This document shows positions 7,601-37,273 of a stretch of 64,000 bases of DNA, in pieces. Source of the DNA: Limonium bicolor. Its lineage: Eukaryota; Streptophyta; Magnoliopsida; Caryophyllales; Plumbaginaceae. The position numbers and the translations under genes were made by a program. Position 1 is the stretch's first letter. Each line of letters starts with the position of its first letter. Below the pieces are notes generated by a model. It was not told the origin of the DNA, did no database searches, and saw nothing but the letters and a program-made list of their open reading frames with translations. The stretch covers positions 47,994,171 through 48,058,170 of the forward strand of contig CM041776.1 in assembly GCA_023374045.1 (NCBI GenBank), in the 5' to 3' direction.

Positions 7601-9176
7601 CTTGAGAGCATTTCTCTAGGTCATTCACCATTGGCTCCTTAGGTATTTTCCATAAGCAACACAAGCTCATTTCTTCTAAGGCTTTTAAACCACATTAGGT
7701 TAACACATTTACCTCTTTTCTTTCAAGACTTCCCACTTGTTTTTCTTTGTTCTTCCTTGATAGAAAATCGGCAAGGGCTTTTTATCACTTCAATCTTCTA
7801 ATCAATACACATATAAGGGTAATGAGCATTAAGTTTAATACTCCAACTCATAGTTAAACCCTAGGTTTACATATGTGTCTTAAAACACCAAAATTTGATG
7901 ATTACCTTTGGAATTCGGAAGAGAGCTTGGTTAAGTAGCAAGATAGGACTCCTCCTAGTCCTTTGAAGTTTGAATTAAGCTATGAAGAGAGCAAGAAAAA
8001 GCACCATTGTGAGGTGAATTTTCGGACACATACAAAAAAATGAGAGGAAACTTAGATTTTCTTTGGTTTTTGTTACCTTGAAACAAAGGAGAATGACAAT
8101 ATGAAAGAAGAGCTTTTCCCCCTTCAATGGAGATTCTTCATGGCACCAAAATGGAGTTCTTGAAGATTTGAAAAGATAGAAGTGAAGAGCTTGGTCTAAC
8201 TAAGACAAATATGGTCTTAGAATTTGATTTGGAGCATTAATGAACATTTGGTGAGAATTGAAGTTGGAGAAGAGAGGTGCTGCACCATGAACGGTTTTGG
8301 TTGGGAGAATGGAGGAAGATGACGGTGGGAACAGAGGAAATGAAGAAAGGTGAGGAGAGAGGCAAAGTTTGAAGATATTTATGTTATAAAGCAAATAGTA
8401 ACTTTACTTTATTTTCTTTTACTTTTCTTAGTTGGATGGCCAAGTATGGTGACTCACACCACTAAAACCGTGCCCCCTTACATATTAGAAGGGTTAATAG
8501 TCTTTGTTGACCAATTTAATTACTTATAACAACATATGTTACAAACTAGCTTATAAAAGTTACTATTCATAAAAACAAGGCACATAGAAGTGAAATTTTT
8601 GATTTCCCATTGATATAGACTTCCAAATGTGATACTATATAGTACACATGTTAATTAAAGAGTAATGATGGACATTTAGCCATTCAAAACTCATTTACAA
8701 GACAATTTTTCAAAAACGTGCTTTAAGACTCCTTAAAGCACTTTTGTGTTTTAACTTGTTTTCAAGCTTGGTTTTCTTTGGTAATTGATTTAATATGTTC
8801 ATTAACATATTTTTAAGGTATAGGTATGACCATTAGGTCTTATACAAATTTATCCCAAGCTTAGAGCACATTTTTGCTCTTATTGACTTTAAGGTATTTA
8901 TTTGTGTTTTGTTTGGTTTCATTGTCTACCAAAGTTTCCTAAGGACTTAATTAGCCTTATTAAATCATACTTGAATATTATTAAGCCTTGGTAGGCTCTT
9001 TGGGTCCTAACCAAGTTCGCTCATAGCTTAGAGCATGTTTTTGCTCAAACTGTGTCTTAATGCTTTATTGCATTTTACTATGGTTTAAATTGTACACTGA
9101 TGTTCCTAAGGCACTTTTAGCCTTTACATACCATAGTTTAATATTTAAACCGCATATCAAGGTTTGGGGTATTTCA
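4627..9176 (-). repeat. 5' LTR of element C (4.55 kb)
   Basis: Bounded by TGTAACACCCC (4627) and GGTTTGGGGTATTTCA (ending 9176) on the plus strand. It contains, in reverse orientation, the landmarks of the A, B and F LTRs: the U5 stem-loop (4719-4738), the GCTGAGCCCC/GGGGGC hairpin near 5000-5035, and a GC-rich hairpin pair at 6636-6758. No gene is present; the short frames inside are not supported by codon structure or by sister LTRs. Confidence 0.8.
6636..6758. repeat. GC-rich inverted/tandem repeat in LTR C
   Basis: Repeats of CCGACCGACCCA face copies of GGGTAGGTCGGCTGCAG, twice over, so the stretch can form two strong hairpins. An equivalent array built on GTCCGACCCA lies in LTR B. Confidence 0.7.
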
Positions 9177-10366
9177 ATTATAGGAAATAAATTATTAAGG
9201 CCGAGAATTTAAGGGGCTAAGTTGTAATTTTTGAAAGTTATAATATCTAAAAGCTATATGCCAAAATATTATTGTTACTTTGTAATTAGCTAAATAAGAA
9301 GTTAAAACTCTATAATATAATGAGATTAGAATTAAATATAAAGTTTATGTATTAATGTGGTTGTTTTGTAAATAACCGAAATATAAGGTAAGAGATTTAG
9401 ATTTAAATAAATATAGGTCCTATATGGATATTTGGAGGAATTAGAAAAGAAAAATTTGATTAAGGAGTTATAAAGTTTAAACTATGACTTATATAGTTAT
9501 AAGGAATTTAAAGGTAACCAATAATTATTATTTATGTTTAAAGGAGGAGATGAAAACTATAAGAATTTTATGTCCATGTATGACATATAAAAATAGTTAA
9601 GAAATATTATAAGTTGTTTGTCACCTAGACAATTAAAAATAACAAATATAGTACATGAATAAATAAATTCATATTTGTACATTAAAGGAATTAGAATAAT
9701 AAAAAGGAATAACAAATAAGTTATACATAAAATCATGAGGTAATTAAAAGAAACAAACCTCACATGAAATAACAAATACGAGATTTGTTAAAAGATCCAA
9801 CAGAATTTTATATAAGGGTAACATAAATTAACCCTCTCAGTTAATCCTATTCTAGGACTTTGTTTGACCAGACATTGACCAGGGTATAATCAACTGCAAC
9901 CTACAGTGAACGGTATGGGATTTTTATAACCTGTTTTCTACCGGATTACACCGGCTTGTGTGCTATCTGTTGTTTGAATTAATGACTAAGATAATTAATG
10001 TAAAATGTTGTTCACTCTTGTGCACTGTTGTATTATTTTATGTGCGTGAATGATGCTGACTACAACGTGTATGTCCCACGCATACAAACACTACTATACC
10101 AGTGGATTAAATACCTGCGCTTCAGTATACCGAGGACTTGTACTCAAGTCTCTCACTAACTTCACTTTATAACAAACGTCATTATCCTAAACGTGATAAT
10201 TGACAATACGCATTGTGTTCTTGTTTAACGTCTTCTATGACACCTAACAATTCTATACTACGAGAACGAGGAGCCCAGTTGGATCTGGCCATGCATGCTA
10301 CAGGAGTTGTACCTGTCTCGGGTCGTCTCCTATTCAGTTATACGTCGCGACGGAACATTTCAGTGG

Positions 10367-10445
10367 AGAGGAAGACTTTATTCCTCTCGAGGGTTCTATT
10401 TCCCATCAGTTCAGTGGAGAGGAAGACTTCATTCCTCTCGAGGGT
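10367..10445. repeat. Tandem hairpin pair in LTR A (second copy in the 3' LTR near 58587-58667)
   Basis: Two units about 50 bp apart, each with 8-bp arms GAGAGGAA and TTCCTCTC around 7-base loops (GACTTTA, GACTTCA). Confidence 0.8.
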
Positions 10446-11009
10446 ACGATTCCCACATTTCTCAGTACAGGAGTTAACTATGTTATCTTCTGAGGGACTA
10501 GTTTCCCAACCTTTCAATTTAACAAGGTCACTATACCTTCACTATTTAAAATACTCAGTTATACCTATCAGTCCCATTGTGTGGACCCGACTATCATTAA
10601 AAGATTACTGTTCAGCTAACTTGACCTTCTGAAGTCTTGTTCTATGTGACATTATTGTCCTTGTATGGATACTTGTTATTATCCTACTATGTTTGTTTAC
10701 AGCTTTATAAAAATGAACTGCATGTATTCGACAAAGTAGTTGGTGTGGCCCGGTAAACGATGGGCTTCACGTTTTCCATACCAGCATTGTTTGCTGAGCC
10801 CCCTTTGGGGGCACCCCCATTTTTCAGGTACCTGAAGTTGAGAAGATTACCACACCGAGTGTAGGTGGGGTAGATTCAAGCTATGGGAGTCTCCTTCTAG
10901 ATAATTGTTTTTACTTAAGTATTTTACATTTGAGTTTGATTCCTAGTATCTCGGATTGTATTCGTATTCAGACCGTGACTTTTGGAGATTGTATTTGGAG
11001 TTAGCCTTG

Positions 11010-11029
11010 TTGGTCACAAGGGTGGCCAA
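11010..11029 (+). other. Conserved U5 stem-loop of LTR A
   Basis: Arms TTGGTCAC and GTGGCCAA with a 4-base loop. Equivalent stem-loops occur at 59234-59253 (A 3' LTR), 37157-37176 and 52564-52583 (B), 4719-4738 (C, minus) and 60198-60217 (F), with compensating base changes. Confidence 0.75.
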
Positions 11030-11140
11030 CGGCATTGTAATACCGCCCGGTTGTTGTATTTATTTCCGCTGCAGTTGTATTTTATTTGGGAGTGATCGCC
11101 GTTCAGGTTATTGGATTTCGGGTTGGGGTGTTACAAAAAG

Positions 11141-11316: not shown

Positions 11317-12704
11317 ATGTCAGGAAGAGGAGGACGCCGTGGACAGGCCGATGAGGAGCCAACCGTCAGGCTGGCAGACATTGCTACTTTAATTGCTCAG
11401 GCATTTGCACAGGCGGGGGTTGCATAGCAGCAGCAGCTACCTCCACCACCACCGCCCAGAGAGAGGGATTGGGTGAAGAGTTTGGCTGATCTGAGGCCAA
11501 CTGCATTCAAGGGACAGACTGACCCTGCTCACTTGGAGACATACATCATGGAGATGGAGACAGCGTTCAAGACACTTGCAGTCCCAGCTAGGGAAAAAGT
11601 AAGGCTTGCTGCCTTTTACCTGAAGGATGCAGCGAGAGATTGGTGGAATATGGTGAAGGCCGACCACCTGGATGACCCAGCTTTTACTTGGGGACACTAC
11701 ACTGCACTACTGAGGGGCAAATACTATCCGGCCCACACCAGGATGGTGAAGACTAGGGAGTTTGACGCCCTGGAGCAGACGGGAAAAATGACCGTGGATG
11801 AGTATTATGCGAAGTTTACTTCACTACTCCGACTACTGCCCGGAATAGGATACTCGGACCAGGTGTTGGTCGACCGGTTCTACGGGGGACTGAGTCCTCG
11901 ACTCCAGTTTGGGATGGGACCAATCATCTCCACCAGTTTACAGGTAAAACAGGAGAGACATAAACCAGTTGAAATTTTATTACCTACTATACCCCGTCAT
12001 GGGAGAATTGGAGACTGATACCTTGAGATTTCAGGAATGTTACCATGCTGCCTCCGTTGTGGAGATTACATGCAAAAGAAGGGATGCTTTGAGCTCCCAG
12101 AAAAGAAAGGACGGACCTGGCAGCGAAGATGCCAAGCAGGGGAACTCCAATAGAAGGAACAAACCCTATGAGAAAGGCCAGGGGTCCTACCAAGGGAAGG
12201 GGAACCAAACTACTGGGAACCCCCAGTCAGGAACCCACGGAGCGGCAACCTCACAGAAAACCTACCCATCTAAGGGTAGGCACTCTAATCAAACAGTTAA
12301 ATTTGAACCCTTTTTGCGATTACTTCAGTACCGTTGGAATGCATAATTGACCTTGATTGTATTAGGTTCTGGACATGGCTCAAACACGGGCCAGAAGTAT
12401 GTCCGCCGTTTCAACTGTAGACAGTGTGGAAAGGATCACCCCGGTGTGGACTGCCAAGGGGAGAAAGTGCAGTGTCGCCACTGTCAGATATTCAGACATC
12501 GTGCCTTCGAATGTATCCGAAACCCGGAGAGTAGGAATTACCGCCCGGGAGCAAAGGCAAACACCGGCCCTAAGAATGGAGCTAGCGATACCCGCCCTCC
12601 ACCAACAAACCAGGCTCAAGGAAATAAGGGCAAAGGCCCAACATCGGGACCCGCCCTGCATGTCATGGACCGCTCAGATGAGGCTGGTCCTTCTACCAAC
12701 CCAG
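11317..12704 (+). pseudogene. gag: gag of element A, three exons, one nonsense codon
   Basis: Structural capsid/nucleocapsid protein of the retrotransposon particle. The ATG at 11317 opens an Arg/Gly-rich N terminus (MSGRGGRRG). A TAG at 11425 breaks the frame where the context suggests an ancestral CAG. The retrotransposon gag domain follows (about 11510-11943), with DWW and a DEYYAKF segment. Comparison with element B predicts two GT-AG introns: 11944-12034 (91 bp, phase 0) and 12276-12365 (90 bp, phase 1). Exon 2 is a basic linker; exon 3 carries two zinc knuckles, an atypical CRQCGKDHPGVDC (CX2CX3HX4C) and a canonical CRHCQIFRHRAFEC. Exon 3 ends at 12704 on a donor that can join either AlkB or protease. 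Introns are inferred from comparison, not from transcripts. Confidence 0.8.
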
Positions 12705-13697
12705 GTACTTCTAAACCCATGTGAACCTAATATTGAGCAATGGATGATGTGATTGAGTGCTTGCATGCCTTGATTGCCTAGTTGCATTGGAAAGAACTAA
12801 TAAGACTCACTAGTAGAATTTTAAACCACGTAGGAAGCTATAAGATATGCTTTCCTATCCCCTCACCGCCCTCCCTGGAAGATAACATTATCAAAATACA
12901 AGAACCAGGGAACGAACAATGTAAGGTTATCCAACCAGGTTTGATATTACTCAAAGGATACCTAACACCGGAGACACAAATTGCAATCATCAGAAGATGT
13001 CAAGAATTGGGAGCAGGACCAGGAGGGTTCTACACTCTAGAATTTCCAGGAGGATCAAAGATGAAGCTGAAAATGATGTGCTTAGGAAAGGATTGGAATC
13101 CTTACTCAAAGACCTACCAGGATACAAGAAATGGAGATGGAGCACAAGTACCAAAAATCCCAGAAGAATTTTTACCAATTGTGGAACAAGCAGTTAATAC
13201 AGCTCAACAGCTAGAAGAAGATCCAGTTCCCAATCTAAGGGCTGATCTATGTATCATCAAATTCTATGAAGAAGGAGGCCGTTTAGGTCTACATCAGGAC
13301 AATGACGAAACAAAAGGGTCCCTTGAACAGGGGATACCAGTATTATCTTTGTCAATTGGAGATGACGCAGAGTTCCTTTATGGCGAGCAGAAGCGTGTGG
13401 ACCTTGCAAAGAAAATCATATTGAATTCAGGAGATGTTTTAATAATGGGTGGAAAGTCAAGGTTGCTATACCATGGAATTAAAAGGATTAAATTAAACAC
13501 ATCACCTTCGACAGTGATAAACACCACTCACATGAAACCAGGAAGATTAAGTTTGACTTTTAGAAAGTACTAGTGTTGTAATTGTTTTTGGGACATCTGA
13601 AAGGAGATCATCTCATCAATGAAGCATTATTGTTATGAAAGTGAATGTCTTTAGACCCCATCATATATCCAAGTACTTACCCAGATTCTGTCATTAG
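12705..13697 (+). other. Predicted third intron of element A gag-pol, enclosing AlkB
   Basis: Donor GTACTTCT at 12705 and acceptor CATTAG ending 13697, phase 1. Splicing joins the gag zinc-knuckle exon to the protease exon in frame. Element B has the same donor, acceptor and phase (38878-39958). Without splicing, gag terminates at a TGA at 12722. After the AlkB stop, AATGAA at 13618-13623 aligns with an AATAAA in element B. Confidence 0.65.
12782..13573 (+). CDS. AlkB-type 2-oxoglutarate/Fe(II)-dependent dioxygenase carried by element A
   Basis: Intact frame of 263 codons. Enzymes of this family oxidatively remove methyl groups from nucleic-acid bases. Visible signatures: a GPGGFY segment (79-84), MMCLGKDWNPY (98-108), iron ligands H171 and D173 in GLHQDND, H231 in LLYHGI, and the 2-oxoglutarate arginines R255 and R261 in RLSLTFR. 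The family's jelly-roll core therefore looks complete. Similarity is closest to plant ALKBH1-like proteins, but the long N terminus is missing. The real exon probably begins at 12834, after an acceptor TAG whose phase fits the gag exon ending at 12704, giving a Gag-AlkB fusion; the ATG at 12782 is an in-frame alternative. The frame lies inside the 993-bp gag-protease intron (12705-13697) and has no intron of its own, suggesting capture from spliced mRNA. Substrate and activity are unknown. Confidence 0.85.
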   Translation: MHWKELIRLTSRILNHVGSYKICFPIPSPPSLEDNIIKIQEPGNEQCKVIQPGLILLKGYLTPETQIAIIRRCQELGAGPGGFYTLEFPGGSKMKLKMMCLGKDWNPYSKTYQDTRNGDGAQVPKIPEEFLPIVEQAVNTAQQLEEDPVPNLRADLCIIKFYEEGGRLGLHQDNDETKGSLEQGIPVLSLSIGDDAEFLYGEQKRVDLAKKIILNSGDVLIMGGKSRLLYHGIKRIKLNTSPSTVINTTHMKPGRLSLTFRKY

Positions 13698-15719
13698 GTT
13701 GTGCTAAGGAGACGGAAGGTGCCTTAAGTATTCTTACTGAGGAGGAGGCCAGCAAGGGCGGCGCGATCCTCACTGGTACCTTTCCTGTTAATGGAGTGGA
13801 TGCATTAGTACTGTTCGACTCCGGAGCCTCACATACTTTCATTTCGCCTTCGCTTGCGGGGAAGTTGGGGCTAGACGCTGTAGAGTTACCTGGTTTTAAG
13901 GTGGCACTCCCGTCTAAGGAGAAGATCAGTTGCACTCGTCTTTATAGAGGAGCCACTATCCGCATTAAGGAGGAGGAATTTCCTATTGACCTTATTGAGT
14001 TCAGAGGTCTAGGATTCGACGTTATAGCCGGGATGGACTGGTTGGGGCGGCATAGAGGCCGCATTCTTTGTGCAGAGCGCAGACTGTTACTTAAGAGCCC
14101 ATCAGGGGTGATAGTATCATACCGCCAGAGCCCTAGAGCACCATCAATAAAAGTGATATCTGCTATGTCTATGTACAAACACGTCAGGAAGCAGAAGGAA
14201 GTTTACTTATGCTATGTTCAGGATGTAGAGCACGACCCTGACTTTGATCCAGATATGCCAGTGGTGTCAGAATTCCCAGATATTTTTCCAAAGGAACTTC
14301 CAGGCTTACCGCCACCCAGAGAGGTAGAGTTCTCCATTGAATTACTACCAGGTACCGGTCCCATAGCTAAGGCACCGTACCGTATGGCACCAGCAGAGAT
14401 GGCTGAGTTGAAGGAGTAGCTGAAAGATTTATTAGACAAGGGATACATACGACCTAGCGTATCTCCTTGGGGAGCACCAGTGCTTTTTGTGAAGAAGAAG
14501 GATGGAAGCCTTCGGTTATGTATCGATTACAGAGAGCTTAATGCAGTATCGGTGAAAAATAAATATCCACTACCACGAATTGATGATTTGTTTGATCAGT
14601 TGAAAGGGGCAAATGTGTTTTCAAAGATCGATTTGAGATCAGGATACCACCAGATACCTATCAAGGAACAAGACATAGAAAAGACAACATTCAGAACACG
14701 TTATGGCCACTATGAGTTTACAGTCATGCCTTTTGGCTTGTCAAATGCACCAGCAGTCTTCATGGATTTAATGAACAGATTATTCAGAGAGCAGCTGGAT
14801 AAGACCGTGGTTGTATTCATCGATGACATCCTAATTTATTCAAAGTCTAAGGGGGAGCATGAGAGTCACCTCCGACATGTACTTGAGATCTAAAGGGAGA
14901 ACCGGCTTTATGCTAAGTTCTCCAAATGTGAGTTTTGGTTAGACAGAGTTTCCTTTCTAGGACATGTTATCTCCGACGCTGGTATCGCAGTGGACCCAGC
15001 AAAAATAGAAGCGGTTCGCACCTGGCCTAGGCCAAAGACAGTGACTGATATCAGGAGTTTCCTTGGATTAGCAGGTTACTACAGAAGGTTTGTCAGAGAC
15101 TTCTCCAAAATAGCAAAACCTATGACCAGTTTAATGAAGAAAGACACACCATTCACATGGACTACAGAATGTGAGACCTCATTCTAGTTTTTGAAGAATG
15201 CTTTGACATCAGCACCAGTTTTGACTATACCTGAAGGCACAGAGGGTTATGAAGTTTACTGTGATGCATCAGGCAGAGGATTAGGGTGTGTACTCATGCA
15301 GAATGGGAAGGTAGTCGCCTACGCTTCCCGACAGCTGAAGAAACATGAGGAGAACTATCCCACACATGACTTGGAGCTGGGAGCTATTGTTTTTGCATTG
15401 AAGATCTGGCGCCACTACCTGTATGGTGTCCAGATGACCATATACTCGGATCATAAGAGTTTGAAATACGTATTCACCCAGAAGGAATTAAACATGAGAC
15501 AGAGGAGATGGGTTGAATTTCTTAAGGATTATGACATTGATTTGCAGTACAAGGAAGGGAAAGCTAATGTAGTAGCAGACGCATTGAGTCGACGAGCACA
15601 TTCCTTACATGCCATTGTGGCTAGCTCGAGTCTTATAAACGACATACGTAGCGCACAGCAGAATGATCAGCGAATGATGGAGATTAGTCAGAAGTCTGAC
15701 GGTACATTTGAAGGTGGGA
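13698..15719 (+). pseudogene. pol: pol of element A, first part: protease, reverse transcriptase, RNase H
   Basis: Encodes the enzymes for particle maturation and cDNA synthesis. The protease active site DSGASHTF lies near 13811-13834. RT shows LCIDYRELN (about 14517), a palm [10 protein letters not shown] (about 14817-14846; FIDD replaces YxDD, as in many plant gypsy elements) and connection motifs. RNase H begins near 15250 with YCDASG and continues with HDLELGA and YSDHKSL. Nonsense codons stand at 14417 (TAG), 14891 (TAA) and 15185 (TAG); otherwise the frame is continuous. It is cut at 15719 by element B; the integrase part resumes at 52677. Joined to gag in frame by the third predicted intron. 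Confidence 0.9.
15715..15719 (+). repeat. Left target-site duplication of element B (TGGGA)
   Basis: Matches 52677-52681 exactly; the pol frame of A resumes across it. Confidence 0.9.
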
Positions 15720-16121
15720 TGAAATACCCCAAACCTTAATATATTAGCTAAATATATAATTATTATATCCTAAGACTTATTTTAGTCATTAAGAACATGC
15801 GGGAAAAATTCCCGAAGGAAACGGATCCAAATAGTGGATTAAAAAGGCAAAACGAGCTTTAAAACACGTCTTACGAGAAACCCGGGAAATATAACTTTAA
15901 ACGGGTTTAAATGGACTAATAAAAATTTATAGTCAATTATATGGCTATAATTAAATATTATTCAAGGTCTAGGACCATAAAAATAAATAAAACAAAAATC
16001 TGGAAACCGGACCCGGACTGTTAAAACTGACAGTTCGGGAATTAACGGGTGTTATCTGCTAATGACCAAGTGCCACTCTCTCACATTATAAAATAAAAAT
16101 CAAATTTCTCTCCCTCTCTCC
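15720..16121 (+). repeat. 5' LTR of element B, first segment (before element D)
   Basis: Matches 43595-43991 of the 3' LTR with a few small indels. The LTR continues at 34135 after element D. No gene. Confidence 0.85.
16117..16121 (+). repeat. Left target-site duplication of element D (TCTCC)
   Basis: Matches 34130-34134; removing D plus one copy restores the uninterrupted LTR B sequence seen near 43990. Confidence 0.9.
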
Positions 16122-17039
16122 TGTGGAGGGTGATTTTTCGGTATGAGGGGGGTCTATCTAAATATGGTCTGGCTGAGAAGTCTAGATCCTAAAAAAGGCC
16201 ATTCTGTGGAGGGTGAAAACCCGTTATCTTGGCATCCCTCAAATACCTACTCCATCGTCCGTCTTTCCAGAAAGCATGAAGGAGAGTGCAAGTGTGCACT
16301 ACACCCGCTCTCGATGGGCCCCACACGGACTTATGCCTCTATAAGGCGGAAGTTGACTAGAGTCGCCACCTAGTTTGACCTATGATAACTAGGAAGGAAA
16401 GGAAAAGGGGTTCTAAGAACCGTTGATTGACTCTGAATTTGTTGCCTATGGATAAGACTTATCTGGTCATTTGCAGGGATTCTATTGTGGGTTCGCACTG
16501 GGTTACACCCCTTAGAAGTGCAATGACCACGACTTCGGATTGGTGCCCGAGGAAACCTCGGTCTCCAATTGTCGGATTGCTTCTTTCAAAACCTTTTTGG
16601 AGAGATTCATTTAAAATCCAGAGGATAGGATTAGGACAGGAGGAGAGAAAGAGAGTGGATGAGGTGAGCTTTTCTGCCAAGCCAACGCCTAGAAGAGGGA
16701 ATTGGGGAATTCGGAGGAGTATAGAATGAAGATTTAGGAAATTCTGGGGTCGAGTGAATAAACAAGACTTGGAGTCTGATGGTTTGAAGTTTGTGAGAGC
16801 CGGAGAAGGTTTGAGTGTTTTGAGAGGTATGAGAACCACAGAAAGGGAAAAGGGTTTTTGTTGGAATGGGGTCGCACCCTAGAGGGGCGCCACGTACTCA
16901 ATCCCTGTTGAGATCAGACCTTGCGTAGTTCATAATTTTTGGCTTTTTGGAGATTTTGATGTTTGTGGAGTTTGAAGATATTTGAGGTGTTTGAGATTCA
17001 GAAGAGTTCGGAGTTTTGAGAAGTTTCGGGTTTGGGATG

Positions 17040-17830
17040 CTAGCCTGTGAGACGCTCGGGTCTGTGAGACGTTTGAAACCTTGAGATGTCGAAATCTGTG
17101 AGACGCTTGGGTCTGTGAGACGCTGGGTCTGTGAGACGCTCAATGTCTGTGAGACATTCGAATCATTGGGATGACAAAGCCTGTGAGACACTCGGGTCTG
17201 TGAGACATTTAAAGTGTAGGGGAATTTGGAATGGAATTGAAACTGAATTGAAATCGATGTTGAATTGGAGTTGAATGAATTTTGATTTGAATTGGAATTA
17301 AAATGAAATTGAGATTGAATTGGAGTTGAATTCAAGTTGGGGTTGGAGAACAGGTTAGGTCATGTTGGACCGAGTTGAAGTTGGGTTGGTCAAAGTTGGG
17401 TCGGTTAAGGTTGGACTGGGTCAAAGTTGGGTCAAAGTCAAAGTTTGGATTGGTCAAAATTGGACCAAGTCAATGTTCGGGTCAAGGTCAAAGTTGGACC
17501 GGGTCGAAGTTGGGTCGAAGTCAAAGTTTGGATTGGTCAAATTGGACCAAGTCAATGTTCGGGTCAAGGTCATAATTGGACCGAGTCAAAGTTGGACCGG
17601 ATTGGGCCTTGGTTAGGTTTGGACCGGATTGGGCCTTCGTTGGGCTTTTGGGTTGAATTGGGTCGAATTAGGCCTTAGTTGGGCTTTTGGGTTGAATTGA
17701 GCCGAATTAGGCCTTAGTTGGGCTTTGGAATGGGCCTCGAATTGGGCTTTGGAATGGGCCTCGAATTGGGCTTTGGAATGGGCCTCAAATTGGGCTTTGG
17801 AAAGGGCCTCGAATTGGGCTCTATTTAGCA
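17040..17830. repeat. Three adjacent minisatellite-like blocks in LTR D
   Basis: First, units based on TCTGTGAGACGCTCGGG; second, GGTCAAAGTTGGACC(GA)GTC-type units; third, about five 24-bp units with GGGCTTTGGAATGGGCCTCG. The same blocks recur at 29740-30535 in the other LTR. Confidence 0.8.
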
Positions 17831-19059
17831 TTTGAAGTGAACTGATGTTTATATTTTGAAATTGACTGATTTTTTAAATGACATTTGATGATTTTTTTAT
17901 TAGAATTGGAATGTTGATTGTGCGTTTTATTCTGACATTAAGGGATGATTTGAAAAGTTTTGAGGAAAACGGGTATTCCTCACATGGACCGTGTCTAGGA
18001 CCCGTATGCATTAAGGATACCCAAACCTAAGGCTTTTTTACACAAGGGTGTCCTATGAGTTATCTAGGGCTATGTATCCTAGCCCGGTTCGGCTAGTAAT
18101 GAATTGGGCCCGAATCGAATCTAGATTTGGGTTGAGGTTTAAACCAACCCAAACGGGCCCTAAGCCAATAACCAATACGACATATTCTTCGAAGATTATT
18201 CAAAAAAAAAAAAAATTATGCATGAAACCACAATATAACATGGAAACAGATTGGTATGGTAAGAGCGGGTAGTACAAGAAGTCCCCTAAGCCGGGTAAGA
18301 TTAACACACGTTTGTTACCCCTTTTACAGATGCATTCGTCACATATACACAACAAGATCAAGTTATTAATGAAACATAATAATAAAAAATATCAGGTTAT
18401 TAGTGAAAAATAAAAAATTAAAAAAAATCAGGTTGTTAGTTATTCCTAGTAGAACAAAGAATATATATGCACTCAAACATACGCCGATTTCTGGTAAATA
18501 ACATAAAATAGCAATTAAAGTGAATTCATGAATACGGTTATCTTTCATCATTTCATTCATTCTTTTTATCACGTTATTATTCCTTGTTTAACTTCTGAAA
18601 ATCTCAAGCCTCAAACTGACAGGACTAATGTCATAGAAAAGAGTTATATATATTAGAAAGGATTTGAATATACAGAATCATGCTAGAGCAGAGTACACAA
18701 GAAAAAACGAATAAACGACAGAAGAGATTAAGATTAGATAAAAAAATACCCAGCACAGGAGATTGAGGATCCGAGAGTATGTTGTCGAGGAGGTTCCTGA
18801 TGGCCAACAGATGCACCGACAAAGGACGAGAATGGAGCGAGTAGCTCCTGCCTTCAGCCTTCTTCGTGTGATACGGTCCCAAAGCTTGAGTCGGTTTTAC
18901 TCTACTTCAGAGTGAGTAAAGGGAGTGAACTGAGGGAGTGCAGCGGTTCAAGTGATTTGTCCCGCGTGTGTCCAGAATGAAGACTCCACGGTGGTGCGAC
19001 AGTTCCGGTGATTTAGCGCTACAGAGGCAGGAACACAAGAGAAGCATAGAGGGAGGTGA

Positions 19060-20290
19060 AGAGCATATTTGTTCCTTGTTCGGTTCAGCAGTAGCTTTGC
19101 AGATTCACTGGGAGTGCAGAGAATGACAAGAGGTACAGGGCTGCATATTTCTTGCTAGTTGAATTCGCAGATAACCCAGAGTGATGAAAATACAGGAGAT
19201 GCGAGTAGTATGTTCATGTTCACTACGCGGGTCGTAAAACCGTGAGGAAGAGACTAGAGACAGAAGGAGATACATGCTCCTTTTTTTTTACCGGTTGTGA
19301 ACAGAGATAAAGGAAGGAGTGCAAAGTTCATCGTTCGCCAGTTGGGTTTACAAGATTACTGTTACGGAGAGAACAGACAGACGAGGAGCATGTATGTTCC
19401 TTATTCGACAGGACTTGACAAGAATGAAAAGAAAAAAAAATGGAAGAGAATGTATGTTTTTCTTTTTGTCCGCCCGTTAGATCGATGGAGAAGAGTATGA
19501 GGAATGGAGTATGTATGTTCACTTTTTCGCTAGTGGTGTTACAAATTAACAGAAGTGAAAGAGGGGAGGGGGTGTAGAACAGGTATGCTCCGGTTCGCAA
19601 AATTACCGTCGATGGAGGGGATGAAGAGAGGGCATAGTTGATTGCTCCTTGTCGCCAGTTGAGTTACAAATGTACCGTGAAAGAAGAGCATGAGGGAGGT
19701 GAAGCATGTACGTCGCTCGTTCAGCAATGGGTTGCAAAATTACCGTCGTTCCATCGTGGCTCGCCGGAAAAGAGAATGAAAGTGTCATGGAGCAGGTATG
19801 TTCCTGTTTTGCAGCTCGTTCGCTAGTCGAGTTGAAGGGAACGGAAGAGACAGCGCCATGTATACTCCTTGTTCGCCAGCCATGTCGAAGAGAATGTAGG
19901 AAGCGCAGCACTCTGGGCTCCTTATTTCATCAGTTGAAGAGGATGAAGAGAGGTTGAGCTGTATGTTCCTCGTCCACCAGCAACATGAATAGAGGAGATG
20001 TAAGTTCTGTGTTCGCCAGCGTGAATAAGGATGGAGGAGGAGGCGCCGACTGCCATGTCTCGTCTCAGAATGAAGGTAGAGCGGAGATGTATGTTCCTTG
20101 CTCTCGCCAGTTTGTGTTGCAAATTACCATGGGTGTAAGTAAGAATGAAGCTGGCACACCGCTTCTTGTTGCCAGTTTGAGTTGCAGGTTACCGTGTTTG
20201 AAGAGAAGGAAGAAAAAAGGCCTAGAGCTGTATGCTCTTTGTTCTTGGTTGTAAAATTCACCGTCGGTAAAGAGAATGTTTATCCGATGG
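19060..20290. repeat. Degenerate ~95-bp tandem repeats in LTR D
   Basis: Repeated order of ATGTATGTTCCTTGTTCGCCAG, GAGTTACAAATTACCGT and GAGAATGA-like words, more than ten diverged units. The sister copy is at about 31770-32960. Period estimated by eye. Confidence 0.6.
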
Positions 20291-21445
20291 TTGAAAGAAG
20301 CGAAGAAGAGTGTATGAAAAGAGGAAGATATTTTTGGGATTGATGACGGCTGGCCCTTGGGATCTGTCTCTACAGTAGGGTTTTCAGGAGTTTTATAAGA
20401 GAATGATGGGAATGGATTGGATCAATGGCTGTCGATTGGGTAGTGGGTTTAGGTGTTTAAAAGTGCCTGGATGGAGCAGAGGAGATGGGATGGGCTTCCA
20501 GATGATGGATACGCATTTTTGGTGTCAAGGCGGACTGGGCTGTGAGCTGACCGAGATCGCTTTGTTTGACCGAGGGGTCTCTATGGAAGCAAAAAAGAAA
20601 AAGCCTCTCTACATATCCACATCTGGATTGAACACAAGACCAATGGTGTCATTAGTGAATGCACTAACCGATTGGGCTGACAATAGAACTTGAAATAAGA
20701 TTGCAACAAATAACAAATAACAAAATGCATTGTTGCTTTGGACTGATGGGACAAAACGCAGAGCAATCAAAATGTTTTATTAGTGTTAATGAATTGTTTT
20801 CTTTTCAAAGGGTTATGAAATAGTAGAATTGATGTAAGGAAACAAACACGTAATTATAGTAATAACAATAACAAAATAATAAAAAATGAAGTAGTACTAA
20901 AAGCAAATGTAATAAAAGTAAAAACCGAATTAGATATGTGCATGTAGTGATAAACAAGTAATGAAATAAAGCAAAATGTATGGGAAGAAATTTAATCAAA
21001 TATGCAACAAAACGAAGTATACGAATGTCAATCATAATTGTAAAAGGATGCATAAAATAATAGAAATAAAAGTAAACACAATAAAGAAGGAAAAAAAAAA
21101 ACAAAATAAAGGTAAATACTAATAAATAAAACGCAAGTAAAGTAACAATAAAATATGATGAGATAAGAAAGGCATAAAATAGCATAAAATAAGAACACTA
21201 TAAAATGAAAAGACAAATAAATAATCAAATACAAAAATAAAATAGTAAAATAAGTGAGTAAACAAAAAGGAATGGGTTTCAAAACGGATTCTTTGAAAAT
21301 TGATTTAGAAAATTTGTCATAAAATGATAGTTTCATTTTGGTATGCACATGAACAATTTTTTTTGAAAAGAAAGGTGACGACCCTCTTTTTTGTTTATTT
21401 ATCTGAATTTTGCGTTTTATGGGGTGAGAATTTTTGGTGTCTACA

Positions 21446-21458
21446 GATGGCTCCCCTT
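21446..21458 (-). other. Polypurine tract of element D
   Basis: The minus strand reads AAGGGGAGCCATC immediately before the LTR start TGTAGACACC. The GGAGCCATC part recurs many times at 23400-24260. Confidence 0.65.
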
Positions 21459-21601
21459 GATTCAATTTTGCAAGCCCTTGCAGAATTGGATCAAGGTTGA
21501 GAGGGCGCCAAAAATTCTCACTATGGCTTTGTGATGCATTGGGATGCGACCGCGAGGAAGATAATGTATGCATGCGACGGGAAGTGATATGATAACTATA
21601 T

Positions 21602-21855
21602 GCACGAGGACTTATTACGAGCCTCAACTAGACCTCTTGACATCCAGCCTAGGACTTATGACGAGCCTGAAATGCTAACAATGGATTGGTTTGAGGTGCA
21701 CGAGGACTTAGGAGAGCCTCAACTAGACCTCTTGACATCTTGCTATAGGACTTATGACGAGCCTATAATGCAATTGAAAGTACGAGGACTTAGGAGAGCC
21801 TCAACTAGACCTCCTGACATCTAGTTATAGGACTTATGACGAGCCTATAATACTT
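21602..21855. repeat. Three ~85-bp tandem repeats in element D 3' UTR
   Basis: Units contain CACGAGGACTTAGGAGAGCC, TCAACTAGACCTCTTGACATC and AGGACTTATGACGAGCCT, in that order. Confidence 0.75.
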
Positions 21856-21864
21856 TGGTTGTGT

Positions 21865-23272
21865 ACCGTACTAGTAGCGTAATAGCTGCCTAGCAGGCGG
21901 ATGTGAAACGATCTCGCACTAGTAGCGTAATAGCTGCCTAGTGGAGGAAAAGTGGTGGGACCGTACTAGTAGCGTAATAGCTGCCTAGCAGGCGAATGTG
22001 AGACGATCTCGCACTAGTAGCGTAATAGCTGCCTGCGGAGGAAAAATATTGGGACCGTACTAGTAGCGTAATTGCTGCCTAGTGGGTTATGAAGTGAACG
22101 ATCTCGCACTAGTAGCGTAATAGCTGCCTAGTGGAGGAAAAAGGGCGAGACCGCACTAGTAGCGTAATAGCTGCCTAGCGGGTCATGAATTGGACGATTT
22201 CACACTAGTAACGTAATAGCTGTCTAGTGAAGGAAAAAAGCGGGACCGCACTAGTAGAGTAATAGCTGCCTACGGGTTATGAAATGAACGAACTCGCACT
22301 AGTAGCGTAATAGCTGCCTAGTGGGTGTAAAATGAAAAGTCGACCGTACTAGTAGCGCAATAGCTGCCTAGCGGGTGTAAAACGAAAAGTCGACCGCACT
22401 AGTAGCGTAATAGCTGTCTAGCGGGTGTAAAAAAAAAGTCGACCGCACTAGTAGCAATAGCTGCCTAGCGGGTGTAAAACGAAAAGTTGACCGCACTAGT
22501 AGCGCAATAGCTGCCTAGCGTGTGTAAAACGAAAAGTCGACCGCACTAGTAGCGCAATAGCTGCCTAGCGGGTGTAAAGCGAAAAAGCGACCGCACCAGT
22601 AGCGCAATAGCTGCCTGGCGGGTGTAAAATGAAAAAGTGACCGCACTAGTAGCGCAATAGCTGCCTAGCGGGTGTAAAACGAAAAGTTGACCGCACTAGT
22701 AGCGCAATAGCTGCCTAGCGGGTGTAAAACGAAAAGTCGACCGCACTAGTAGCGCAATAGCTGCCTAGCGGGTGTAAAGCGAAAAAGCGACCGCACCAGT
22801 AGCGCAATAGCTGCCTGGCGGGTGTAAAATGAAAAAGTGACCGCACTAGTAGCGCAATACTGCCTAGCGGGTGTAAAACGAAAAGTCGACCGCACTAGTA
22901 GCGCAATAACTGCCTAGGGGGTGTAAAACGAAAAGTCGACCGCACTAGTACCGCAATAGCTGTCTAGCGGGTGTAAAACGAAAAGTCGACCGCACTAGTA
23001 GCGCAATAGCTGCCTAGCGGGTGTAAAGCGAAAAAGCGACCGCACCAGTAGCGCAATAGCTGCCTGGCGGGTGTAAAATGAAAAAGTGACCGCACTAGTA
23101 GCGCAATAGCTGCCTAGCGGGTGTAAAACGAAAAGTCGACCGCACTAGTAGCGCAATAGCTCCCTAGCGGGTGTAAAGTGAAAAAGCGACCGCACCAGTA
23201 GCGCAATAGCTGCCTGGCGGGTGTAAAATGAAAAAGTGACCGCACTAGTAGCGCAATAGCTGCCTAGCGGGT
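21865..23272. repeat. ~50-bp tandem array in element D 3' UTR, about 29 units
   Basis: The core CACTAGTAGCGCAATAGCTG is followed by CCTAGCGGGTGTAAAACG-type spacers. Units with CACCAG carry CTGGCGG and units with CACTAG carry CTAGCGG, so the two arms change together. From about 22340 on, units alternate in a higher-order pattern. In element orientation the array lies just upstream of the 3' LTR, where tandem repeats are typical of Tat/Ogre elements. Confidence 0.9.
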
Positions 23273-23394
23273 ATGAAGATACATTAGATAGTGAACAAAT
23301 TTTGTGGGTATATGCAAGTGATATGCGATGTGAGATGGTTAACAATTGTATTAATTGAATCGAACTCCCTGTTTGTTTGGTGTAGGTTTTCGTG

Positions 23395-24260
23395 TGAGCA
23401 GATGGCTCTAGAGTTACATCAAAACTTCGGGATGGCTCCGGTGGCTCCGGCATGGCTTCAAGGATCTGAGATGGCTCCAGCATGCGTTGATGGCTCCGGT
23501 ATGCACTGATGGCTCCGGTGTGACCAATGGTCTCGGGGTGGTTGATGGGTTTGACATGGTTGGTGATTTTGTGGCAGTTTATGGGCTTTGATTTGCCTTG
23601 AGATTTTGTTTTTCAGGGTGGTTTGATGGCTCCGATGATGGATTTATTATTGTTTGACGGGATTTATTGTGGACTTTGTAGTGAGTGAATGGTTTTTCAC
23701 GAGTGAATGATGAAACACAGTTGCATGACTTTCTTGGGAGTTCCCATCATGGTTCCAGAATTTCCATAGATGGCTCTAGGATGGTCTTGTGCTGATTGAG
23801 CATGACGATGCTTTGGTTGGTTCACTTTAATGACACTGAGGGAAAAGGGAAGCTTTCGCCTTTGATGTGGTCGCACCCTGAATGGGCTGCCTACGTACTC
23901 AATTCCGTATTGAGATCAGACCATACGTAGTTCGATACTTTGTGGACGAGGCTTTGACGAGGGAATGACTCCTGTGTAGCCCTTGGGATAGTCTTAGTGT
24001 TTTGAGGATGGCTCCCGCATGGCTCCAGCTTGGCTTTGGGAGTGGTGTTGATAAGACTCGCGTATGACAGTGGATGGCTCCAGTTTTGACTTCTTTCGAT
24101 TGGGAGTTATGCTTCAACGACTACAACTGAGGTTGACTTTCAGCGAGACTATGCATAGTCTTTACGGGTCAGATGTTGAAGATGAAATGATTATGATGCA
24201 TGTAGACACTAAATGCTAGATGTACAAGGATATGCATTTTTTTGGAGAGAGTGTATGGCT
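23395..24260. repeat. Dispersed GATGGCTCC repeats in element D
   Basis: About a dozen copies of ATGGCTCC(A/G)G-like words (for example 23432, 23470, 23491, 23508, 24007, 24072) in sequence otherwise without genes. On the minus strand each reads GGAGCCAT, the word next to the polypurine tract. Confidence 0.65.
23866..23938 (-). other. Folded conserved motif, internal copy in element D
   Basis: Nested inverted repeats on the minus strand: outer arms CTACGTA and TACGTAG, inner arms CTCAAT and ATTGAG, followed by GGCAGCCCATT and GGGTGCGACC. Related copies lie in both LTRs at 16862-16932 and 29562-29632. Confidence 0.65.
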
Positions 24261-27200
24261 CTATCTCTATTAACATGAGGTTTACGGATATAAGACATCT
24301 TCGGTTCGATCTTGAGTGATTGTTGAACAAGAATGCATGAATCACTTTCCTCTCATGGAGGGATGCGGGTTAATCTCTCGTGAGTATGGTCGTGTGTGCT
24401 AATGGTGTGATGATACTCTCAATGTTCAGAGCAGTATTTTCCTAAGAATTTCTTTCGAGGTCATGGACTTCCCGATCCTTACAAGTTCCTCACCCGCAAT
24501 GGGGGTAGGCTATTATATTTTGGTGCTTAGATCAAAGAGTCACTCGCACTCAAAGGACCCTGTGGGGTAAGGTCACACTCACTCGCTCATTGTCCCTTTA
24601 GTATGACAGGACATGCTAATAACAGTACGAAGCTTATGATTCATGTTTCAGATCCGGTACTTTCAGTTAGCGCTCATCGACTTATGAGTCAGAGGTCTTT
24701 TATTGGGTTATAATGGGGCTGATGGGTATAATGTATGTCACATGGGACTGGGTGATCAATTTGGGAATTATGGAGCTTTTTGTGCAATATAGGACATGTT
24801 TCGCCTTTTCCATGGGTGGAATGATTAGACGGGTTTTGATAACCCCTTTCGGTTTCTTCGGGACATTGGTCCTTTTTGGTTTGGATTTTTCCTTCTTGCC
24901 TCTTCTGGCGTACGATTTGAACTTTCTTCTCATTTTTGTGTTTTTAAAATTGCATTTGGCTCATCAACTTTCTCAAGCATTCTCTACTTTGTATTTTGGC
25001 TTTCAGCTTTGGAGTTGCATTGACTCATCGATCTTCTTGAACATTTTCGGTGTTCTTTTTTTGGTGTTTGACTTGGAGTGCATTGACTCAGATTCCTTCA
25101 AACATTTCATTTGTTGTTTTTGTGAAAGATGGTGGGGAAGAGACCATGACTCCGGCTCCTTCAATATCCTCTATTGCAAGGGCGAGTAAATATATGTACG
25201 TGGGTTGGCATGTTGTGGGTTCACAGAAAAAAGTTATCGTGAAAGGCTCAGCGGGGCTCACTAAGGGATTATGTACAGGCAGTGAAAGTTTTTTTTGGTT
25301 TTTTGGAGCTTTTTGTTCCTATGTGCCTCTTCATTCTCATTAGCGATGATTGTTTTCTTACTATTCTCAGATCTTTGCATGAATCACAGTTCGTGACTCG
25401 CTATCAACATTGATCTTACTATGTATTGTGCCTCTCCACGTGCTGAAGGAATGCACATGTCGCTCGTGGTTTTACCTCGATTGGCTCTCTCTCCTTTCCC
25501 TCATCGCTCAGTAGATCGTCCAATACACTCAATTGAATTCCAAGGAAAATACCGCTCTTCGCAAATTACTCACTTTGTTTGTGGTGCTGATTTTGATTAG
25601 ACCCTTGTGTTCATTGACGGGTCGAGAGTTTAGTGATTCAGGCATGCTGTTCAATCAATCTCTCAAGATTTTCCCCAAAGATGTCGTTTCGATATGAGTG
25701 TATGCAGTACATCTACCATGCAATGTGTTGTGGTAATATGGAACTACTATGTACATATGATGCATGAAATGCTGAAAATGATGAATGGAGATGGCTGACT
25801 TTGAATTTTGACCAAATGTGTGTGTGTTTTTTTTTTTGGTTTTTCTTTTTGGATGCAATGCATGAGTGGTAAGGCTACACCTAGTCTCGCTTGGGTCAAA
25901 TTCAGCTCACAGTTCATGAAGCTCATCCCGTCACGATTGGCTCTGAAGACGGTCGAGTTGTGGTGATTGTTGTTGAAGAAGTAATTCTCCAATGAGGTCG
26001 GGTTGGTGATTGGCTCCTCGAGTTTTGGAATTTTAGGGAGTGACAACTCCCGCATGGTGGCCCCATAATATATGACATTGACTGCATTTTTTTTGGGGAT
26101 TTTTGAACGTATGCTTTTTTTGGATTTTTTTGGATGTACGATTTTTTTGGATTTTGGATGTATGCTTTTCTTTTATTTGGGATTTTTTTTTTGGGTATAT
26201 GATTTTTTGGATGTATGATTTATTGGTATATGCTCTTTTGTTGGTGTTAGTCTCTATGTACATGGCATGCCGAATGGGAAGATGCTTGAATCCCTAGTAT
26301 TTCTTGCTATCGCTTTGAGGGTCACGCTTTCACTCGTGGGCAAACGCGGTTAATCACCTGCAAAACGGTCATCAAAGAAGAATCTGACAGATGCGAATGT
26401 TAGTACGCTTGAAAAATGAGATGAATGTTTGTGTGTGATGTGTTGAGAATGCAACCTGTGATTATGCAATTTTCTGAGATGGGTGTGATTTATGCATGAT
26501 TAATGAATATGAAATGACCGAAGATGGGAAAAAGCAATTCGTATGTGCTACAAGAAATCAAGTCTTAGAGAGAAAAAAAACAGTTTTAAAAATACGTGTT
26601 TTCGAAGTGGTGGATTTTCTCAATAGGAATTTTGACGCTTGGTCATTCGCAAATAAAAATAGGGAGTGGGGAACCCTATACACATTGATCTAAATAAATT
26701 CAAAGGGAATGTACAACCTATACACAAAGTCTATTCAGAATTTGACAAGAGAGAAAAGAATGCTAGGGGAAAACCTATACATCAATTTTAAAAGTCATTA
26801 AATGGGGATTTTGAGCTTAAAAACTGCTCCCGAATTCTTCTGCTTCGTCCTTGAGCTTCTGACTGTCTGCTCACTCATGTGCGGGCTCTTGATTGGCCGT
26901 TCGCTCGTCTTCGTGTTCGGGCAACAAGGTGACACTATGATCAAGAGAAACTGGTTGGTGCTCTTCTGACCCTTTGCAGCTTCGAACTCGAAAGGTTGTT
27001 TCTGATCTTCATGTCGCTCGACTCGGGTTGGTGCAACTCTAATTTTGGCTCGAATCGTCGTTGATCTTCATGCATCCCACTTGCTCCGGTGAAGGAAAAT
27101 AAGGGGCATTTTTTGAGAAAGGAAAGGTGAATGATCGAGCATAATTCTTTGTGAAAATCCACCACTTTGTGAAAACACGAAATGACTAGTACGCTCCACG

Positions 27201-28813
27201 GTAATGACCGCTGCTCCTGAAGGTGGGTTGAACTTCAAAAATAGCGGGTCACGACATGGGGACTAAATCATTTATTTTGAAATACATTTGTGAAAATCAA
27301 TTTTGAAAACTGTTTTCGAAAACTATTTTGAAATATTGTGAAAAATGTTGTTCCGAAATTCGTTTGTAAAGTAGGTTTTGAAATCTGTTTTGAAAATAGT
27401 TTTTGAAACATTTGTGAGAAGTAGTGTTTAAAAATCATTTGTAAACATAGATTTTTGAAATCTGGTCTTTACAAACTATTTGACAAAGTTTTTTTCTGGA
27501 AGACTTTGATTGAAATCGATTTTGAAAACTGTTTTGGAAATAACAATTTTGAAAATCATTATTTTTTTGAAAATCATTCGAGATGAACGACGTTGAAGAG
27601 ATTTCATTAGAGTGTTCAAACTGATTCATTTTCAAATTTTTGCTCATTTTTGAAACGTGATCACACATGTAAGCGCAAAATAAAAATCGTGGCTGATTTT
27701 ATGTGGAGCTGAGTGTGAATGATTGGGATAATCACCTTCCAGGTCAATCAATGCTTCCATACCACCGGGGGAACCGTCGTTCCTTCACTGTTCATCTCTC
27801 GGGATTTATCTCTGTTATGCCTTGTGGGGCACGTCATCAAGAAAGTCCGGAGTGCTTAAGTTCGAAAGGTCAGGATACCCGAAGTGATACAGTCACACGA
27901 GCCACGGCCGGGGATTATCACAACATACTCACTTTTGGGAAACTTGGGGAAGTACTGCATGGGAACGGGTCTCCCCTCGTCTGCACGATAAGGTGTGTCT
28001 AAAGTCCAAATTATTCGCTGGCTACGCTTTGTCATGTATGGGTATCCGTAAATACGGGATCCGCTATGAATTTGTAGCACGACATTGGGCTTTAAAGACA
28101 CCCGTGGTGCAGAGGAATCATGGAGAACTGAGCCCATGCAATCTTCAGGGTAAGGCAGAGGGTGGTCAGACAGGCGGCATACAAGGGGGTGACTACCCAT
28201 AAAACCCGTCCTAGACACTGGACCAGGCAGCTGGACACTGAAGGCTCATGGCTCACTATATGCTGGCTTAGACTCGGGTAATGGAGGATATGTTTGGATC
28301 ATGAGCTTCAAGGCGTAGGTCTTGGACCATGTTACCTCGTGGGTTAACTCCTTCTAGGAAGGACCCAACTCATGGGGAATCAACCGTGGACCGGTTGGGA
28401 TCCCGTGACTCGTGGACAAATCGGGTGACACAGAGGAATGCATGTCCTATGCTACCCGATGCAACAATGGGTTGACTCCTTCTAGGAAGGCCCCATTTAC
28501 AAAAGCAATAAATAAGCAATAAATATTATGTCATGCATGAAGAGCAGTAAACATAAGACAGTAGACACACAACAATAAACACACAAAAGTGAAGCATGCA
28601 AATGGTAAAGCACACATATGGCACTCAAGGCCAATCTCGAACTCTGGACTCTCATCCTAACTATCCTCTCAGCGCACACTCTAAGTGTGGAGTAGAGTAG
28701 TCCTAGCGGCTTAAGAATGAATCTCTTGGAGGTTTTGAAAGAAGTTAGGGAATCCTGACAATTTTGAATGGAGTTCAGTCTTCCTTGAGTTTGAGAAAAA
28801 CTTACTCAAGTTT
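24260..28813 (-). other. Element D internal region without recognisable genes
   Basis: No retroviral domain was recognised on either strand. The longest element-orientation frame is 120 codons at 27856-28218 (minus, start MSRTGFMGSH), with no recognised motif and no comparator. A 158-codon frame at 24713-25189 on the plus strand is hydrophobic, runs against the element and is probably an antisense frame. Low-complexity stretches occur at about 26085-26245 (GGATTTTTTTGGATGTATG-like) and 27265-27625 (TTTTGAAA-like words). Confidence 0.55.
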
Positions 28814-28831
28814 TCCCCAGCAGAGTCGCCA
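28814..28831 (-). other. Primer binding site of element D
   Basis: The minus strand reads TGGCGACTCTGCTGGGGA, three bases inside the 5' LTR. This is the primer type described for Ogre elements (tRNA-Arg); the tRNA assignment is from memory of the family. Confidence 0.8.
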
Positions 28832-28834
28832 TTC

Positions 28835-34129: not shown

Positions 34130-34134
34130 TCTCC
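34130..34134 (+). repeat. Right target-site duplication of element D (TCTCC)
   Basis: Mate of 16117-16121. Confidence 0.9.
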
Positions 34135-35400
34135 TGTGTCTCACGGTTTGCTCTCCCCCTCTCCTTCTCTACTTTATTAATTCTACTTATTTACTAAAAT
34201 ACAAAACAATAAACTACCTACTTTATTTCCTCTCTCACACTCTCTCTCTTCCTCATTCTCTTCACTCACGATTCCTCCCCTCACCCAGCTCTCTCTCTTT
34301 GTTTTTTTTGCTCCTCTAATGGCGATTCCACAAGCCAAAAGCAACCCCAACTTCTTCCTCTTGTAACTTCTTCATTCTAGCTCCAAATCAAGAAATTCTT
34401 TCACCAAAATACTCCTCTCATCTTGGGGATTATTTTGTACCTTTCAAATCTCAAAACTCCATACTTCATCTCCATGGGTGTACCCCATTTTGAAGAGAAA
34501 GCTCCACATTCTTGAAGCCAAGTGTCTTCTTGTTGCTCTAAGGTAAGAAGGAAATCAAAAACTCACTCATTCCTTCATTTCCTTCTTGAAATCGATTTTC
34601 CTTGTTTTGAACACCATGCTTGTTCTCCATGTTAGCTTGTTCAATCTCCTTGAGGAGTTGGAGCTAGCCCAATCCCACTACCAAACATTTCATTTTTGAA
34701 ATAGAGGTAATTCCCTCCATAAGTTCAAGCAATTTCTAATGCTAGGGTTAAAGGAATTATAAACCCTAAATACTCATGGTGGCAATCTTGGCTTGGTCAT
34801 TAGTGTAGCGGTAAATCCCGTTGATAACCGATTGTGGAACAAGGAACAAAGAGAAGGGAAGGTTTGGGAAGAAAAACCAAAGGTAATAAACTTACCTTAA
34901 ACCAATGTGTGAGCTATGGAATGTGTTTTGTTTTGGTGTAAATAAATGTTCAGTGAAATGCAGGTGTTGCTAATAATATGAGAAATTCAGTGTTTTATTT
35001 AATGTTGTTTAAGGGCCCAAGAGTCAAGCTTGTAGGGTTTATGAATGTTGAGAGCTATTATGGGTTAAATGGTGAAATTAAGTGTGTTTTGGTGCCTTGG
35101 GTGAGTTGATGGTTGAAGTGTTTAATGGGTTAAGAGATGAGTGGGAACATGTAAACATTGTGGGGATCATGTCAAAATTGATGTAGAAATATAATGGTTC
35201 AAATACATTTTGAGTGAGAGCAAACTAGTGAGCTTCAAGTGTTTTGAAAGAATATTTAAGGAATTTGGAAGTGAGCTTGTAAATGAATTTGGAAGGGGTT
35301 ATATGAAGGTTTTAGCGTGCCTAATGATGTAAGAACACCTTAGGAGACTTGTGGAGAAGTTTGGAAAAGATTTGACAAATTAAGGGCTGATTTTGGTGGC

Positions 35401-37156: not shown

Positions 37157-37176
37157 TTAGCCACGTGGGTGGCTAA
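37157..37176 (+). other. Conserved U5 stem-loop of LTR B
   Basis: Arms TTAGCCAC and GTGGCTAA, perfect 8-bp stem, GTGG loop; repeated at 52564-52583. Confidence 0.75.
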
Positions 37177-37273
37177 CGGCGTGTAACACCGCCCTTTTGG
37201 TATATGTTTAAGTAATGATTTCCGCTGCGATTATTGATTAAGTGTTAAGGTTTGGATGGGGTGTTACAAAAAG

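Follow-up and report, generated by a model that had tools for sequence, protein, structure and literature searches.

In the 64,000-nucleotide stretch of contig CM041776.1 analysed here (the window), two nested Ty3/gypsy retrotransposons, called A and B below, carry between gag and protease a gene for an AlkB-type dioxygenase related to plant ALKBH1. The position of this gene, its homology and its presence in two diverged elements can be read directly, and the differences between its two copies bear the signature of purifying selection. AlkB in Ty3 elements is already in print; an independent capture is the best reading of the present case. The object of interest is the family of AlkB-bearing elements rather than the protein of A itself.

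In element A, the frame of this 2-oxoglutarate (2OG)-Fe(II) dioxygenase occupies positions 12782..13573 on the plus strand (263 codons, the first codon being TTG). An earlier reading of these letters without database searches (the sequence-only reading) had given the same coordinates, the same open frame and the same motifs; the iron ligands HxD...H and the RxxxxxR motif are all there (H171, D173, H231, R255, R261). The hidden Markov model comparison that it had proposed gives a match to PF13532 (2OG-FeII_Oxy_2) with 158.8 bits, for a curated cut-off of 31.2 (E 2.5e-46). Among PDB sequences, rice OsALKBH1 comes first (5xeg; E 2.6e-72, 246 bits); E. coli AlkB is next with about 76 bits, and human and mouse ALKBH1 reach at most 43 bits. 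An AlphaFold model was built from 35 aligned sequences (mean predicted local distance difference test score, pLDDT, 86.6). Its closest PDB structures are 5xoi and 5xeg, with a template modelling (TM) score of 0.91 by target length at 2.1-2.2 Å and, for OsALKBH1, 51% identity in the structural match; E. coli AlkB comes next. The match of the model to human ALKBH5 (7v4g) is far poorer (TM 0.56), and a profile made from five AlkBs of the element type found no ALKBH5 chain in the PDB up to E 10. These comparisons place the AlkB of A in the plant ALKBH1 type, nearer to OsALKBH1 than to the other AlkB subfamilies with solved structures.

The surroundings of the frame are those of a retrotransposon read on the plus strand. 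Upstream, the gag (PF03732) and zinc-knuckle frames of A are found in pieces at 11473..12724, gag with its Pfam match and the knuckles recognized by eye, without a Pfam match. Downstream, the protease, reverse transcriptase (RT) and RNase H part of pol extends over 13698..15719, with three stops and a protease frame from 13796. Past the nested insertion, the integrase and chromodomain of A are found at 52989..54026 (SH3_Tf2-1, 72.9 bits; rve below its cut-off; PF00385, 27.7 bits for a cut-off of 25.1). Because a chromodomain follows the integrase, A is by its domain order a chromovirus. These Pfam domains and the OsALKBH1 match bear out the earlier proposal of an ALKBH1-type AlkB within a Ty3/gypsy element, here a chromovirus, between gag zinc knuckles and protease. 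The matched part of the 5′ long terminal repeat (LTR) lies at 9176..11136 and ends with TGTTACA at 11135; it is followed at 11141 by the primer-binding site (PBS) TGGTATCAGAG, common to A and B, which we take to be of the initiator tRNA-Met type. The matched part of the 3′ LTR (57389..59360, plus strand) is 97.8% identical to the 5′ LTR over 1976 columns. The Tekay clade, a label that we base on the PBS and the LTR ends, would fit the chromodomain and the tRNA-Met-type PBS. About 3.3 kb between the end of A's pol and the matched 3′ LTR (54027-57388) are without counterpart upstream of 9176, and one LTR of A seems either truncated or to carry an insert.

Element B (15720..52676, plus strand) is inserted in the pol of A, with TGGGA on both sides (15715-15719 and 52677-52681). 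Both of its LTRs are split by further insertions, the 5′ LTR into 15720-16121 and 34130-37268, the 3′ LTR into 43595 to about 44300 and 49819-52676; the final 2.8 kb of the two are 97.2% identical. The order in B is the same as in A, namely gag, AlkB, protease-RT-RNase H and integrase, with a chromodomain remnant seen by eye only. Its AlkB (39007..39760, plus strand) stands at the same gag-pol junction; it is spread over three frames and retains the stop at the homologous end. The sequence-only reading had envisaged, as a finding that would count against it, a domain present in one copy only, which is not so. DNA identity between A and B is 73.9% in protease-RT-RNase H (1893 columns) and 71.0% in AlkB (658 columns). 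The two elements are thus clearly diverged and both have AlkB, which is therefore no accident of one copy.

The shares of AlkB sites that differ between A and B are 0.249, 0.124 and 0.531 at codon positions 1, 2 and 3, respectively. The proportion of synonymous differences (pS) is 0.76, that is saturated, and that of nonsynonymous differences (pN) is 0.174, giving a pN/pS of 0.23 (bootstrap 0.17-0.31). The corresponding ratios are 0.24 for gag, 0.31 for the zinc knuckles, 0.215 for protease, 0.12 for RT, 0.14 for RNase H and 0.11 for integrase. The AlkB count retains 177 codons of 271 aligned pairs, some of them overlapping, after windows with less than 45% amino acid identity were dropped. 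The third-position excess is the firmer selection result, compared with pN/pS. These figures point to purifying selection on AlkB while the two elements diverged.

Protein relatives of A's AlkB were considered as the best 120 of 319 at E ≤ 0.001. The nearest among the matches listed, P0002-P0005 (source labels ena or lgn), are 58-72% identical to A in the alignment. The remaining 116 show 43-53% identity in local alignment, and the named ones among them are plant proteins, many labelled ALKBH1-type or N6-methyladenine (6mA) demethylase. In a tree of 42 rows, A, B and P0002-P0005 form a single clade (support 100/100) on a long stem. The place of this clade among host ALKBH1 proteins is weakly supported (28/61), and it is an open fork in a tree of 35 rows that took in three Caryophyllales host proteins. 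A grouping of five element AlkBs with these three hosts is disfavoured (approximately unbiased test, p-AU 0.026); since the three hosts themselves form no clade, the test says little about the donor lineage. Towards their N-terminus, A, P0002 and host proteins have in common a leader motif of the FDIC type, which reads YKIC in A, and they also share the C-terminal end TFR-x-[YF]. The part preceding FDIC measures 51 to 264 residues in five host proteins, against 19 in the frame of A and 29 in P0002. At the other end, a stop is present in A and B, and the records of P0002, P0003 and P0005 terminate there, P0004 being shorter. The simplest reading would be that the element AlkB is the captured C-terminal part of an ALKBH1-type gene, its stop included. 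Viral contigs contain three AlkB relatives (27-32% identity); bacterial and archaeal genome contigs gave no relative of A's AlkB.

How AlkB might be expressed is suggested by the junctions. Short A/T-rich spacers separate it from gag and from pol. In A it is flanked by stops, upstream at 12722, 12728, 12734 and 12779, and at its end and downstream at 13571, 13598 and 13652. The last stop upstream in the pol frame of A is at 13652, and this frame has no ATG before 14033, within protease. Of the twelve GT/AG pairs conserved between A and B, two link gag to pol in a continuous, stop-free frame in A as well as in B. These two share the donor CAG/GTAC (12705 in A, 38878 in B), with acceptors at 13697 and 39958 or at 13718 and 39979. 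Because conserved GT/AG pairs restore the gag-pol frame, a location of AlkB in a facultative gag-pol intron is suggested. The candidate intron of A would span 12705..13697 (CAG/GTAC, ATTAG/G; alternative acceptor 13718) and its homologue in B, with conserved GT/AG, 38878..39958, both on the plus strand. That AlkB lies within a spliced-out segment is, on this sequence pattern, an evenly balanced proposition.

Putting these elements together, we lean slightly towards the following explanation. A chromodomain Ty3 lineage in a Caryophyllales-like plant would have taken up the stretch of a host ALKBH1-type gene that encodes the C-terminal part, beginning near the PFDIC motif and including the stop codon, and would have retained it at the gag-pol junction. 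Unspliced RNA would give AlkB as a protein of its own, whereas removal of the AlkB-bearing segment by splicing would bring gag and pol together. The enzyme would then demethylate the element's own single-stranded molecules, either genomic RNA or cDNA, and so take off N-methyl groups that stand in the way of reverse transcription or that tag the RNA. Separate translation, splicing and demethylation are what we infer from the arrangement described above. Demethylation of single-stranded DNA or RNA belonging to the element is the most likely activity; both its minus-strand cDNA and its genomic RNA are single-stranded. The PDB titles among the fold matches include E. coli AlkB with 1meA, N6-methyladenosine (m6A) and meC substrates. 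Rice ALKBH1 is reported to remove 6mA from DNA that is single-stranded or unpaired (PMC10469495).

Several observations weigh against this explanation, beginning with the state of the two genes. The AlkB of B is frameshifted. In A, the frame had been called intact, and its 263 codons are indeed open; on the other hand it starts with TTG, a stop stands in its leader and two conserved Asn are lost. The probable start region lies at 12740..12781 (plus strand), where a leader resembling that of P0002 by eye opens with an in-frame ATG at 12740 and is broken by TAG at 12779; the next in-frame ATG is at 13061 (residue 94), none being usable earlier. Residue 257 is S, where 32 of the 34 rows with a letter have N and one further row also has S; we take the Asn of this column to be a cofactor-site residue. 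At residue 160, A has K and is alone in this among the 35 aligned rows, the other 34 having N; Y162 is retained. P0002-P0005 have N in both columns wherever their sequences reach them. So has B in the high-scoring segment pair (HSP) with homologous context, an overlapping HSP giving Q at column 160. Residue 160 aligns with N193 of ALKBH5, which, in the N-x-Y motif N193/Y195, stabilises 2OG (PMC9289625). With K160 in place of the N-x-Y Asn, the protein of A belongs to the AlkB family by descent, but its status as an enzyme is doubtful. On account of the leader stop, the lack of a usable ATG, N160K and N257S, copy A is probably dead, giving no working enzyme. The length of its open frame is not remarkable in itself: 3 stops fall within the 673 codons of A's pol (13700-15719), a density at which 264 codons would remain open with a probability of 0.31. 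Nor is AlkB the only long frame left intact in A, as the sequence-only reading had it, since gag (181 codons), protease (207) and RNase H (182) frames are also open. The remaining objections concern the comparisons. The dropping of low-identity windows biases pN downward. The pairing of A with B inside the element clade is weak (89/7, 42 rows). Only A and B are shown within elements, because P0002-P0005 are protein records alone. Finally, a non-conserved GT in B (38935) scores 7/9 as a donor against an assumed splice consensus, which equals the score of the conserved donor in A (7/9) and exceeds that in B (6/9).

Other explanations may be envisaged. The protein could be an m6A eraser shielding the RNA of the element from m6A-dependent control, convergent with the orchid protein discussed below and drawn from another AlkB clade. 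The activity of the orchid protein on m6A in vitro and the argument from ONSEN and ALKBH9B (PMC9289625; PMC12786077) speak for such a role, which we consider unlikely. Against it, the enzyme falls outside the ALKBH5/9/10 type, as judged from the TM score of 0.56 against 0.91 and from the absence of ALKBH5 chains among the profile matches, and DNA 6mA is the plant ALKBH1 substrate reported in PMC10469495. The same source describes rice ALKBH1 as stripping 6mA at R-loops and limiting the binding of Polycomb repressive complex 2 (PRC2). By the same route the element protein might work on host chromatin and so help the element to be transcribed where chromatin is repressed; this is improbable, as the captured part is without most of the host N-terminal region in which A and P0002 fall short.

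Two further possibilities deny AlkB a separate product or any benefit. AlkB could belong to one gag-AlkB-pol polyprotein and be released by the protease, and in A the knuckle, AlkB and pol happen to share a reading frame. Nevertheless, this reading is highly improbable given the stops that flank AlkB in A, the AlkB stop kept in A and B, and the three relatives that end there. In addition, with the query frame padded to 755 residues, no retroelement domain appears in the precomputed Pfam column of the 105 longer proteins listed. Least probable of all, AlkB would be a passenger, carried along without benefit to the element. Plant retroelements do pick up host sequence, and both AlkBs of the window are damaged; yet the AlkB protein was kept like gag and protease despite saturated synonymous change between A and B. 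A role on the primer tRNA, at 1-methyladenosine (m1A) 58 of initiator tRNA-Met, was set low. m1A58 helps plus-strand termination in HIV-1 (PMC13191261), so that its removal should harm the element.

The window holds further insertions and one host gene. Within the 5′ LTR of B lies an LTR element (16122-34129) whose two LTRs, each about 5.3 kb long, are 98.4% identical and which has 50-bp tandem repeats at about 22311-23409; it is probably non-autonomous, since it has a single frame of at least 180 amino acids (21028-21627, minus strand). Within the 3′ LTR of B lies another (44299-49818; LTRs 44299-46051 and 48068-49818, 98.3% identical), whose 188-residue frame (47249-47815, minus strand) has no Pfam match. 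At 4552-6833 (minus strand), diverged LTR stretches related to the LTR of B (70-82% identical) are found with a PBS-like site at 4611; tblastn searches of this stretch for gag, AlkB and pol gave none, and positions 1-9200 contain no frame of 90 amino acids. Two overlapping minus-strand frames at 62239-63857 belong to a cytochrome P450 gene (PF00067). For the 317-residue frame, which gave 69 matches, the top 17 relatives bearing names are all from Caryophyllales (47-53% identity) and include Ancistrocladus, Nepenthes, Mollugo and Bienertia. The order was looked up for the first two genera; Mollugo, Bienertia and the other genera concerned also belong to it.

The sequence-only reading knew of no AlkB module in Ty3 elements. 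Such a module has been reported in orchids: in a screen of 121 angiosperm genomes, Alvarado-Marchena et al. (2022) found a 2OG-dependent dioxygenase (2-ODD) domain only in Gypsy elements of Phalaenopsis (PMC9289625). In the open-access literature, by titles and abstract openings among the matches listed, no report of ALKBH1-type or chromovirus AlkB elements was found, and the articles naming both "AlkB" and "Tekay" include none on plant retrotransposons by title. It may tentatively be proposed, with somewhat less than even confidence, that Ty3 elements captured AlkB at least twice: the ALKBH subfamilies drawn upon would differ, as would the recipient lineages (Tat/Ogre, chromovirus), and the hosts, orchids and a Caryophyllales-like eudicot, are distant from each other. 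In the present case the gene would sit in an intron, so that the unspliced RNA that is reverse transcribed would encode its own demethylase and the spliced RNA would make gag-pol. A single capture of AlkB could be an accident. A second one, of another clade, in another lineage and under selection, would mean that methyl removal from the RNA or cDNA of the element is worth a gene. The marks pointed to are 6mA in DNA or m1A and 3-methylcytidine (m3C), besides m6A in RNA. Whether plants control retrotransposons through methyl marks on their nucleic acids thus becomes testable.

The closest known system is the Phalaenopsis element Gypsy_Pa_2799, like the present elements a plant Ty3/gypsy retrotransposon that has gained an AlkB (PF13532) frame and preserved it during its evolution. 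The orchid elements have an RT sister to Ogre within Tat, a tRNA-Arg PBS and a dual RNase H (PMC9289625), whereas the present ones are chromoviruses with a PBS of tRNA-Met type. The orchid ORF2 (565 residues) encodes an ALKBH5-type AlkB that demethylates m6A in single-stranded RNA in vitro, an activity lost in H448A (PMC9289625); the present enzyme is of the ALKBH1 type, set apart from the Phalaenopsis protein by the description of the latter. In Gypsy_Pa_2799, AlkB is C-terminal in this separate ORF2 and gag-pol is one ORF, in contrast with a gene between gag and protease here. The hosts are a monocot in one case and a Caryophyllales-like eudicot in the other. With plant ALKBH1 (OsALKBH1; ALKBH1C and ALKBH1D by database name), the element AlkBs share the domain sequence, the C-terminal end and the FDIC-type leader; they differ in forming their own clade on a long stem and in lacking most of the host N-terminal region. 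As regards expression, PMC6317226 and PMC12786077 describe regulation of gag and pol by partial splicing in Ogre and EVADE, EVADE using alternative splicing (PMC12786077). The present elements are candidates only for such a mode and, unlike Ogre and EVADE, their candidate intron separates gag from protease and would itself contain a gene. Lastly, plant RNA viruses (cited in PMC9289625), likened here by description only, resemble the present elements in being mobile or viral RNA genomes with their own AlkB, which in the viruses is a domain of the replicase.
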